Source of the DNA: an uncultured Bacilli bacterium
GTDB lineage: Bacteria; Bacillota_I; Bacilli_A; RF39; UBA660
Reading direction: 5' to 3'
Assembly: GCA_944358355.1 (NCBI GenBank)
Contig: CALVQY010000014.1
Location: 1 to 37,028, forward strand
Length of the DNA stretch: 37,028 bases
The translations under genes were made by a program, and so were the position numbers. Position 1 is the stretch's first letter. Each line of letters opens with the position of its first letter. Shown here in pieces: positions 5,412-10,090 of this stretch. The notes under the pieces are model-generated. The model saw nothing but the letters and a program-made list of their open reading frames with translations. It was not told the DNA's origin and ran no database searches.

Positions 5412-5452
5412 TTATTATAATTTGAAACTACTACTATTCATTTTTGCACATT

Positions 5453-5486
5453 AAAAACTCCATCTCTTCAAAGAAGAAATGAAGTT
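5453..5486 (-). terminator. Rho-independent terminator after the Abi locus
   Basis: A 14-bp minus-strand stem (5473-5486 pairing with 5456-5469, two U-G pairs, UUU loop) followed by T residues. It ends the Abi_2 transcript and the downstream RNA element. Confidence 0.85.
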
Positions 5487-5529
5487 TGATTTTGACTTAG
5501 GGCTTCGAAAGTTTCCTAAATACCAATCA
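5453..5529 (-). ncRNA. Structured RNA element, downstream copy (abiF-RNA-like), with terminator
   Basis: Positions 5494-5529 match 33 of 36 bases of the element at 6445-6480 in the leader of the same gene. On the minus strand it folds as a 7-bp stem (AUUUAGG / CCUAAGU) around a 13-base loop that is identical in both copies and contains CUUUCGAAG. Two of the three differences convert a C-G pair into U-A; the third turns a C-G pair into U-G. Pairing survives only on the minus strand. The terminator follows after 7 nt, so a ~75-nt RNA ends here, from the Abi mRNA or from a weak promoter of its own. Conserved RNAs near abiF genes have been described; identity with them is inference. Confidence 0.6.
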
Positions 5530-5556
5530 CTAATAGTTTATTAGTTTTTATTATAA

Positions 5557-6423
5557 TTATTCACTAGGATAGCCCATAATGTCTAAAATACCTCTTATAC
5601 TAATTGATTTTAACTTTTTAGATAACTTTGTAATCTCTTTATAAATTTGTTTCTGAAATTTTTTAGAATGTTTTTTATCTAATAATAATTTCATACAATT
5701 AACTAACATATAGAAATTAGTAGAACCATTATGCTTATTATACACCTTATCAACTAGTTTATAACTAATAAAAAATTTACTATGAAATGTATAAAGGCGA
5801 TCTGAATGAGCGCTTATATTTCTAGCTAAAGTTAAGTTGACTAAAATTTGTTTTAATAATTTATCTGATATTTTAAAATACTTACTAATTGCTTGCCTAT
5901 CTTCTTGCTTTAATAGTCCATAAAATCTACTAATCTCACCAAGTGTTAAAACTTTAACTAATACGAACGGAGGAACATATCCATACACATTTTGATAATG
6001 GGTAATTGCTGGATGTTTGCCATAATTTTTATTTAACTCTTCTTCAATATTATGCACTAGTCTTTTTACTGAATCAGTATCAGCATTTATATCAAAATTT
6101 TGTCTATCTAAATAATTTTCTATACCATATTTTTTGGAAATAGTATTAGCAATTAAGGATTTAACAACAACTTCAATTTCTAAAGCATATTTTAAAAATA
6201 TTGCTCTTAAATTTTTATCGAAATTATATAAGGAATATATTTCATTAAAAGTTACACCTTCAAAATATTTACCATCTCCTTTAAAAACTTCTTTATAAGT
6301 ATTAACAATGGCATAATATGTATATTTTTCAATTTTACTTAAGGCATCTTTTTTATTTTCAATTATAACACCTTTAGAAATTAGATAATTTATTAAATCT
6401 TCGTTACTTTTATATTCCTTCAT
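5557..6423 (-). CDS. Abi_2 (AbiD/AbiF) family abortive-infection protein
   Basis: A 288-residue protein of the Abi_2 family. Visible landmarks are the wHTH-like start ending LISKGVIIEN, IYSLYNFDKNLRAIFL (62-77), the central IEVVVKSLIANTISKKYG, and the RNISAH motif at 201-206. That motif is the R-x4-H signature of HEPN ribonucleases, so the likely activity is RNA cleavage triggered by phage infection, leading to growth arrest. Related lactococcal proteins AbiD/AbiF block phage growth. The gene has its own promoter and terminator, and both its 5' leader and 3' region carry copies of one structured RNA element. Such RNAs may act as antidote or guide; this is inference. GGGGGA serves as the ribosome site. 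Confidence 0.85.
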   Translation of the reverse strand: MKEYKSNEDLINYLISKGVIIENKKDALSKIEKYTYYAIVNTYKEVFKGDGKYFEGVTFNEIYSLYNFDKNLRAIFLKYALEIEVVVKSLIANTISKKYGIENYLDRQNFDINADTDSVKRLVHNIEEELNKNYGKHPAITHYQNVYGYVPPFVLVKVLTLGEISRFYGLLKQEDRQAISKYFKISDKLLKQILVNLTLARNISAHSDRLYTFHSKFFISYKLVDKVYNKHNGSTNFYMLVNCMKLLLDKKHSKKFQKQIYKEITKLSKKLKSISIRGILDIMGYPSE

Positions 6424-6444
6424 ATTTCCCCCATAAACAAAATT

Positions 6445-6480
6445 GACTCAGGGCTTCGAAAGTTTCCTGAGTACCAATCA
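6445..6480 (-). promoter_or_regulatory. Structured RNA element, upstream copy, in the Abi_2 mRNA leader
   Basis: The minus-strand stem ACUCAGG / CCUGAGU closes a 13-base loop identical to that of the copy at 5494-5529. The predicted transcription start falls at or next to the element's first base, so the mRNA begins with it. It could be a cis-regulator, the target of the trans-acting downstream copy, or a processed RNA cofactor of the Abi protein. Confidence 0.6.
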
Positions 6481-6484
6481 ATAT

Positions 6485-6519
6485 GAATATATCACTTTTA
6501 TTACTTCCTGTCAATAGAT
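6485..6519 (-). promoter_or_regulatory. Sigma-A promoter of the Abi_2 locus
   Basis: On the minus strand TTGACA is followed by 17 nt and TATATT, within the 40 nt upstream of the leader RNA element. This is one of the best promoters in the window; transcription would start about at the element's first base. Confidence 0.7.
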
Positions 6520-8549: not shown

Positions 8550-8598
8550 GAAATAAAATATAATGTTTATACAAGAGATTTTCAAGTGTCAAAAATAC

Positions 8599-8635
8599 TT
8601 GATTTTCACCAGTTTTTATCATATAATGATAAAAA
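8599..8635 (+). promoter_or_regulatory. AbiE promoter with perfect palindromic operator
   Basis: TTGATT (8599-8604), 17 nt, TATAAT (8622-8627). Overlapping the -10 box is a perfect 10-bp inverted repeat, TTTTTATCAT (8613-8622) and ATGATAAAAA (8626-8635), with a 3-nt centre. A second inverted repeat (TCAAGT 8582-8587, ACTTGA 8597-8602) overlaps the -35 box. AbiEi antitoxins are known to repress their own promoter by binding inverted repeats. Confidence 0.7.
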
Positions 8636-8646
8636 GAGGTGAAAAT

Positions 8647-9237
8647 ATGATAATAACAAGTGATATAGCAAAGCAATATTTAGCAAAATACTCTAATAAG
8701 AATACTAGATTATCTAGAGATGTTAGAGATGGAAAACTAATCAAGATAAGAAATGGTTTATATGAAACAGAGGCAAATACTCCAGGATATTTACTTGCAG
8801 GCAGTATTTATGGTCCATCATACATATCTTTTGAATATGCACTTGCCTATTATGGATTAATTCCCGAAAGAGTGACTACTATAACTTGTGCCACTTTTAA
8901 TAAGAAAAAGAAAAGAAAATATGAAACTCCATTTGGTACATTTACTTATAGAGATGTTCCATCATTAGCATATCCAGAAGAAATAATTTTAAAAGAAGAA
9001 AATAATTATTCATATCAAATAGCAACTCCTGAGAAAGCTTTATGCGATAAATTGTATACATTGAAGTCATTAAAAAATTATTCTAATTTAGAAAAGATGT
9101 TATTTGATGATTTACGAATAGATATAGAAGAGTTTAAGAATTTAAACGTTGAAAAAATAGAAAAGTTAAGTAATTTATATCACTCAAAAAATATAGAATT
9201 ACTTGCTAAATATAAAAGGAGAAAAAAAGATGAATAA
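8647..9237 (+). CDS. abiEi: AbiEi antitoxin of a type IV toxin-antitoxin system
   Basis: A 196-residue protein with an N-terminal winged helix (residues ~1-45, including LIKIRNGLYE as the wing) followed by the AbiEi domain (ISFEYALAYYGLIPE, then ATPEKALCDKLY near 140). It is the DNA-binding antitoxin that represses the operon and counters the AbiEii nucleotidyltransferase without direct complex formation. The ATG at 8647 has AGAGGTG upstream and sits just after the palindromic promoter; a longer frame from 8563 would run through that promoter. It overlaps abiEii by 8 nt (ATGAATAA). Confidence 0.9.
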   Translation: MIITSDIAKQYLAKYSNKNTRLSRDVRDGKLIKIRNGLYETEANTPGYLLAGSIYGPSYISFEYALAYYGLIPERVTTITCATFNKKKKRKYETPFGTFTYRDVPSLAYPEEIILKEENNYSYQIATPEKALCDKLYTLKSLKNYSNLEKMLFDDLRIDIEEFKNLNVEKIEKLSNLYHSKNIELLAKYKRRKKDE

Positions 9238-10090
9238 TATAATAGAACAAATGCTTTCAAAATATGAAATTAAAAATATTACTGATGAAATCAATGCTTT
9301 AAAGGAAATCATCCAAGAAATAGTGTTACTAGGATTATCTAGGAGTGGTTTTTTTGATAAAGCAGCATTTTATGGAGGAACAGCTTTAAGAATTTTTTAT
9401 AAGTTAGATAGATTTTCAGAAGATTTAGATTTTGCCTTAATCTCTCATAATAAAGATTTTGATTTAAGTAAATATTTTAGTTATATAGAAAAAGAACTTA
9501 AAGCATATGGATTAAATATGGAAGTTAATACTAAACAAAAAAGCACATCTTCTAATATAACTTCTGCTTTCGTAAAAGGCGATACATTAGAACTCATCTT
9601 AAAATTTTTCCCAAATGAAGAAAGCCATAATTATGATCATATCTTAAAAAAAATTAAAATAAAATTTGAAGTTGATATTAATCCACCAGACGGCGCTACT
9701 TATGAAGACGTGTATAAATTACTACCAAGTCCACATCAAATTAAACTATATGATAAAGAATCTTTATTTGCTAGTAAAATTCATGCTATACTATGTAGAA
9801 ACTGGAAAACAAGAACTAAAGGAAGAGATTTATATGACTATATATTTTTTCTAGCTAATAATACAAACGTTAATTTAGAACTTTTAAAAAATAAATTAAT
9901 AGCATCTGAATATATAGACGCTAATAGTAAATTTGATATAAATATACTAAAAGAATTATTAATTAAGAAATTTGAAATAATTGATTACACTGAAGCTAAA
10001 GAAGATGTAATTCCATTTATTAAAGATGTAAACAGCTTGGATATATGGAATAGTAACTTTTTTATCAGTATTACTGAAAAATTAAATTAA
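9230..10090 (+). CDS. abiEii: AbiEii nucleotidyltransferase toxin
   Basis: A 286-residue toxin with the family's nucleotidyltransferase motif YGGTALR followed by RFSEDLDF (residues ~45-70) and the later KGRDLYDYIFFL motif near 195-206. AbiEii-type enzymes transfer nucleotides to tRNA ends or bind GTP, causing reversible growth arrest that limits phage. The start at 9230 has a GGAG site in the abiEi coding region and overlaps its end by 8 nt, so antitoxin and toxin are translationally coupled. All core motifs appear intact. The terminator at 10106-10131 follows. Confidence 0.9.
   Translation: MNNIIEQMLSKYEIKNITDEINALKEIIQEIVLLGLSRSGFFDKAAFYGGTALRIFYKLDRFSEDLDFALISHNKDFDLSKYFSYIEKELKAYGLNMEVNTKQKSTSSNITSAFVKGDTLELILKFFPNEESHNYDHILKKIKIKFEVDINPPDGATYEDVYKLLPSPHQIKLYDKESLFASKIHAILCRNWKTRTKGRDLYDYIFFLANNTNVNLELLKNKLIASEYIDANSKFDINILKELLIKKFEIIDYTEAKEDVIPFIKDVNSLDIWNSNFFISITEKLN

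Follow-up and report, generated by a model that had tools for sequence, protein, structure and literature searches.

Paired, covarying RNA hairpins at the two ends of a predicted AbiF-type HEPN gene in an uncultured Bacilli bacterium

Why should a putative toxin gene carry one copy of the same RNA hairpin in its mRNA leader and another just past its stop codon? The question is posed by a 37,028-nt stretch of DNA (the window; contig CALVQY010000014.1 of assembly GCA_944358355.1) from an uncultured Bacilli bacterium, which bears such an Abi_2 gene on its minus strand. Work on AbiF systems offers a frame for an answer: in Clostridioides difficile the RNA RCd22, with two abiF hairpins, binds AbiF and neutralises it in cis and in trans (PMC12373285), and the PbAbiF dimer takes two RNAs (PMC12737573). 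Candidate roles for the hairpins range from RNA antitoxin through regulatory element of a single message to DNA-level repeat, and we weigh these here by comparison across related loci, whole genomes and viral contigs.

The abi gene (5557..6423, minus strand, 288 aa) is preceded by a promoter matching 11 of 12 consensus positions (TTGACA at 6514-6509, a 17-nt spacer, TATATT at 6491-6486 and a TG before the -10 box). The hairpin element, here called R1, comes next: the 5' copy (6438..6480, 67.3 bits with the R1 covariance model and supported by covariation) has stem arms at 6472-6466 and 6452-6446, a loop at 6465-6453 and a U-tract at 6442-6435, and a Shine-Dalgarno-like GGGGG (6428..6432) lies between it and the ATG (6423-6421). 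Beyond the gene, a -10-like TAAACT (5535..5540, 4/6 consensus) precedes the 3' copy (5487..5529, 60.8 bits; stem arms 5521-5515 and 5501-5495, loop 5514-5502), and a 15-bp hairpin resembling an intrinsic terminator closes the unit (5453..5487, stem-loop 5455-5487), all likewise on the minus strand. The original prediction had placed 36-nt copies at 6445-6480 and 5494-5529 with 33 of 36 positions identical, and this holds, as does its statement that the three differences all fall in the 7-bp stem and keep pairing (one C-G to U-A change, one C-G to U-G) while the 13-nt loop AAACUUUCGAAGC is the same in both. Its placing of the leader copy at the promoter start is also borne out: the copy begins 6 nt after the -10 box, so that +1 lies at about its first bases. 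The proposed 14-bp terminator after the 3' copy proved to be 15 bp long; the fold of 5440-5545, which takes in the 3' copy and this hairpin, has z = -4.7, and a simple pattern scan of the window flagged no terminator, this hairpin included. Two further defence-related features were noted: an AbiEi/AbiEii type IV toxin-antitoxin pair lies near the locus at 8563-10090 (plus strand), and the same genome has a second Abi_2 gene (L073, G000:C31; 318 aa), which lacks the hairpins and sits in a separate hairpin-less clade of 21 rows.

The protein belongs to Pfam PF07751 (Abi_2) with 142.9 bits against a gathering threshold of 25.6 (E 1.8e-41), and PADLOC returns an AbiD match (E 2.2e-55). By sequence it also matches 8VZ6 (E 1.6e-13), the PbAbiF dimer with bound ncRNA, which is the best match of its predicted fold as well (E 1.4e-11, TM 0.79, structure-based identity 23%). 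The residues named in the original prediction, R201 and H206 of the HEPN RxxxxH motif (5823-5806, minus strand), were correct; they are invariant in 21 relatives and align with R210 and H215 of PbAbiF, whose double mutant is inactive (cited in PMC12373285). On the strength of the modelled fold, we take the locus protein to be an Abi_2/HEPN protein with the PbAbiF fold. Scanning one genome per species yielded 43 Abi_2 relatives in gut Bacilli and Clostridia assemblies, mostly metagenome-assembled sequences; apart from short fragments, they are 47-86% identical to the query. In the protein tree the R1-bracketed proteins form a single clade (support 100/100), and a search of IMG/VR with the Abi protein gave no relatives.

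The copies owe their significance to comparison, not to their lone folds: taken singly, neither window copy stands out for its stability (z -1.3 and 0.0). A search of the whole 1.5-Mb genome returned only the two copies in the window, which removes the concern that they are footprints of a dispersed repeat. The other concern, that related Abi_2 loci might lack such RNA pairs, was likewise not realised: a leader copy and a post-stop copy occur in each of the 38 relatives whose gene is intact and whose two flanks are present, the rest of the 43 being gene fragments or cut by contig ends. Run over 17 whole host genomes, the covariance model gave 49 matches, 40 of which make up 20 pairs spaced 950-963 nt apart; R1 is otherwise rare, with clear matches in 6 of 392 genomes of the phylum.

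Across 54 distinct copies, which align without gaps, 99.7% of the cells in the 7-bp stem are paired and double changes occur at six of the seven pairs. Scored for covariation, the named structure as a whole reaches 0.404, compared with 0.212 for shuffled and at most 0.12 for slid controls, which do not fully remove the relatedness of the copies. Counted as stems, and with relatives L079, L082, L083 and L142 included, 22 distinct versions pair with one mismatch in all (99% paired) around a nearly fixed loop, AAACUUUNGAAGC; the loop is almost invariant in 85 copies while the stems vary. An outer helix (columns 2-6/36-40) is weaker than the 7-bp stem, with 84% pairing. The two copies within one locus differ at a mean of 6.75 of 36 positions, as much as copies from different loci do. 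We also considered a kissing contact between the copies through UUCGAA and rejected it, since the middle base varies among C, A and U. The two-copy layout is thus real and not a matter of chance; stem pairing and loop sequence are under strong selection, and the layout is kept across the clade.

An identity with the abiF motif of Rfam (RF03085), to which the original prediction had pointed, was not borne out. Rfam searches of the window at gathering and at E 10, and of seven more loci at E 0.1, returned no family, RF03085 among them; its gathering threshold is 37 bits and the positive control, phiC2, scores 37.6. RF03085 had no match in 193 genomes of the same family either, a search in which the controls were silent as well. 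As judged from these sequence searches, R1 is a new RNA family distinct from RF03085.

The two copies differ in their settings. The 5' copy has the stabler stem of the two in 37 of 40 loci, and the richer U-tract after it, again in 37 of 40; the 40 loci are related, so the p-value of this contrast is not to be taken literally. In the relatives, promoter boxes precede the 5' copies in nearly the same register, and the distance from the start of the hairpin loop to the start codon is 39-61 nt, with a Shine-Dalgarno sequence in between. Some loci have a 5' hairpin of about -6 kcal/mol, which is weak for a terminator. The 3' copies mostly have no U-tract, and nearly all are followed by a separate stable fold resembling a terminator. 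In two loci, L041 and L053, U5 comes directly after the 3' copy, which has a GC-rich stem, and L053 has a second Abi-like start beyond it. An exact TATAAT stands in promoter register before 32 of 42 3' copies (7% in shuffles), with no -35 box. The best evidence that the 3' copy can be an RNA gene of its own comes from L115/L083, a sister protein of the R1-bracketed clade (about 30% identity, support 81/89): it has no 5' copy, and its gene is followed by TTGACT-17-TATAAT, then R1 (26.9 bits), then a terminator. The free RNA of about 75 nt foreseen in the original prediction is plausible on these grounds; in the window itself, the -10 box is poor, and where a -35 box would lie, overlapping the stop codon, there is none; here the 3' copy may therefore arise only within the mRNA.

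Bracketing occurs in two further Abi_2 lineages, so that a second hairpin per toxin gene recurs. L061 and L103, in the clade of the C. difficile AbiF, have on both sides a hairpin resembling RF03085 (23-25 bits, short of the gathering threshold), and on a gut phage contig (L142) the Abi_2 gene is bracketed by a hairpin with loop AAACUUGCGAUGC. Other candidates did not stand: the upstream-downstream self-similarity of L069, L074, L127 and L129 is a terminator or a short chance match, and L137 has a terminator-like hairpin common to both flanks with no clear antitoxin-like one. Leaders of L105, L108, L113 and L143 carry another hairpin family before Abi_2, built on a plan like that of R1 (7-bp stem, 13-nt loop AAGCNUANGGNGC). 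In L051 and L052, the leader hairpin loop TATCCCGTGTGGA has a reverse complement of 16-17 nt starting at the Abi_2 stop codon, and the ends of the mRNA could therefore pair.

Some loci appear to have lost parts of the unit, and R1 also occurs alone. L006, a near-identical strain, has a 174-nt in-frame deletion that removes the HEPN motif and keeps both hairpins; the deletion could be an assembly fault. L082 has a single hairpin with a 5'-type promoter and a 3'-type flank, resembling a locus whose toxin has dropped out from between the copies. In L079 and L338 a solo, promoter-bearing R1 immediately precedes a CptIN type III system that has two RNA repeats in tandem; a PemK/MazF-like toxin gene has another R1 in its leader (L339:1501-1543), and a solo R1 precedes an AbiLi-like ATPase in L340.

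R1 is also found in phages. Five IMG/VR contigs carry it (32-48 bits) between the genes for the major tail protein and the tail assembly chaperone (PF23803), at L211:1723-1764 (-), L180:674-715 (-), L167:4292-4334, L183:4347-4382 and L188:1517-1559, and none of the five has Abi_2 near R1. The exact viral pattern hits 71 stretches of IMG/VR, most without the full stem; L171 and L194, good pattern matches at contig ends, were excluded. We estimate that chance alone would yield about 7 matches to loop plus 7-bp stem across the whole of IMG/VR. Single phage matches therefore carry no proof; only the set of five in one homologous slot does. Across 80 chaperone relatives, this slot is as a rule occupied by a terminator-like hairpin whose loop is not that of R1. 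The chaperones sharing R1 are down to 41% identical and a close relative (L229) has a different loop, so the R1 loop is kept in some phages and is not just inherited with the slot. The phage hairpin had no match in 50,697 deposited phage records. A second hairpin, GTCGTATTCAG...CTGGCGGC, the inner bases of which are conserved, recurs in this slot some 60 nt upstream of the chaperone start (L236, L238, L241, L257, L267, L271, L274, L278 and others), and was not found near the retrieved Abi_2 loci. The viral R1 hairpins are possibly RNA decoys, and in the case of ToxIN a phage is known to imitate the RNA antitoxin (PMC3475682). We put forward only tentatively, as rather doubtful, the fuller scenario of an arms-race RNA, in which R1 would be the AbiF antitoxin, the tail-slot copies of tailed phages, on abundant late mRNA, would titrate the toxin, and the solo units in defence islands would be orphan antitoxins.

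For the bracketed genes themselves, we consider it reasonably likely that they encode an HEPN RNase of AbiF type, kept in check by an RNA antitoxin that derives from the two gene ends, R1 RNA probably being the safety catch on the toxin; such gating is suggested by work on other AbiF systems. Each hairpin would bind one monomer of an AbiF dimer and silence the RNase, and the second hairpin per toxin gene may, we infer, serve a dimer that binds two RNAs. The 5' copy would double as an attenuator, a stable hairpin with a U-tract ahead of the Shine-Dalgarno sequence, so that most transcripts would end as short antitoxin RNA and few would read into the toxin. A further antitoxin RNA, some 75 nt long, would come from the 3' copy at the opposite gene end, which has a terminator of its own and usually a -10 box as well. 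If transcription came under phage control, or through RNA decay, the hairpins would run short, and the freed RNase would halt growth of the infected cell. Protein identity and fold, the pairs in 38 of 38 loci and in the whole host genomes, covariation, the single clade of R1-bracketed proteins, the 5'/3' asymmetry, L115/L083, the RCd22 and PbAbiF precedents and the retention of both hairpins in L006 all speak for an RNA-antitoxin module; the unlikeness of R1 to the abiF RNA with shown antitoxin action, the weak 5' terminators of some loci, the empty terminator scan of the window and its poor 3' -10 box with no -35 box speak against it.

The same hairpins might act in cis only, the Abi dimer sitting on both ends of its own mRNA to repress translation, perhaps also closing or protecting the message, with no free antitoxin RNA. 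The spacing of the 5' loop from the start codon around a Shine-Dalgarno sequence would suit such autoregulation, as would the capacity of one mRNA to bear both copies for a dimer that binds two RNAs; we nevertheless think it unlikely, because it does not account for the -10 box in promoter register at 3' copies, the separately promoted 3' unit that is the only copy in L115/L083 or the solo promoter-bearing copies, and because RCd22 works in trans. Less likely again is an infection sensor in which R1 mimics a phage RNA element, so that a phage protein binding that element turns on toxin translation through the leader. There is precedent in the activation of AbiD1 by Orf1 (PMC2661086), and the five viral contigs have R1 in the chaperone leader in the same hairpin, U-tract, Shine-Dalgarno and ATG layout; yet few phages have R1, their slot usually holding hairpins with other loops, the 3' copy is left unexplained, and no candidate protein is known.

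That the copies are just a transcription attenuator and a terminator, with no binding of the toxin, is very improbable: U-tracts do follow the 5' copies, and the phage slot generally holds terminator-like hairpins, but the 3' copies mostly lack a U-tract and have a separate terminator while keeping the same loop, and that loop stays near-invariant in 85 copies despite varying stems. We disfavour most strongly, as scarcely credible, a reading as DNA-level direct repeats, the ends of a mobile cassette or recombination sites. The copies are indeed direct repeats around one gene, and L082 resembles their recombination product; against this, the changes preserve RNA pairing on one strand, the conserved unit includes a promoter outside the 5' copy and a terminator outside the 3' copy, and copies within a locus are as divergent as those between loci.

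Set beside known systems, the RNA-antitoxin reading has a close counterpart in AbiF-RCd22 of C. difficile (phage phiC2 relative, L046; PMC12373285), which shares the Abi_2 HEPN toxin, two hairpins per gene, a hairpin RNA located at the promoter start and transcribed together with the toxin and, as we infer here, attenuation before the toxin gene. There, however, both hairpins lie upstream in one RNA of family RF03085, whereas here one of another family lies on each side, and the AbiF-RCd22 protein and the R1-bracketed proteins fall in different tree clades. PbAbiF-AbiFr (8VZ6; PMC12737573) shares the fold and the corresponding HEPN residues (R201/H206 for R210/H215), but AbiFr is a single ncRNA species with one molecule per monomer, and bracketing does not feature in the sources consulted. 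Type III toxin-antitoxin systems (ToxIN, CptIN, TenpIN) likewise join an RNase toxin to a repeated RNA antitoxin on what is here a presumed common transcript, but their toxin fold is unrelated, their repeats stand in tandem before the toxin and ToxI is a pseudoknot; the type III order of RNA repeats before the toxin and then a terminator is not found here, with one copy before and one after the gene. AbiD1 of Lactococcus lactis is again an Abi_2 gene with a structured leader that controls expression, but there a phage protein activates translation and no second copy is described (PMC2661086).

What is new here is the RNA family and the layout with one hairpin at each end; the kind of system is already known. 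Cas13 is considered to descend from AbiF, and the way in which the RNA partner of AbiF is encoded has a bearing on the possible route from antitoxin RNA to guide array. The present clade adds another RNA family and, beside the tandem arrangement of C. difficile, another layout, the latter found in more than one AbiF lineage. This makes it testable why two hairpins per gene recur and provides a defined candidate for RNA-based phage counter-defence.
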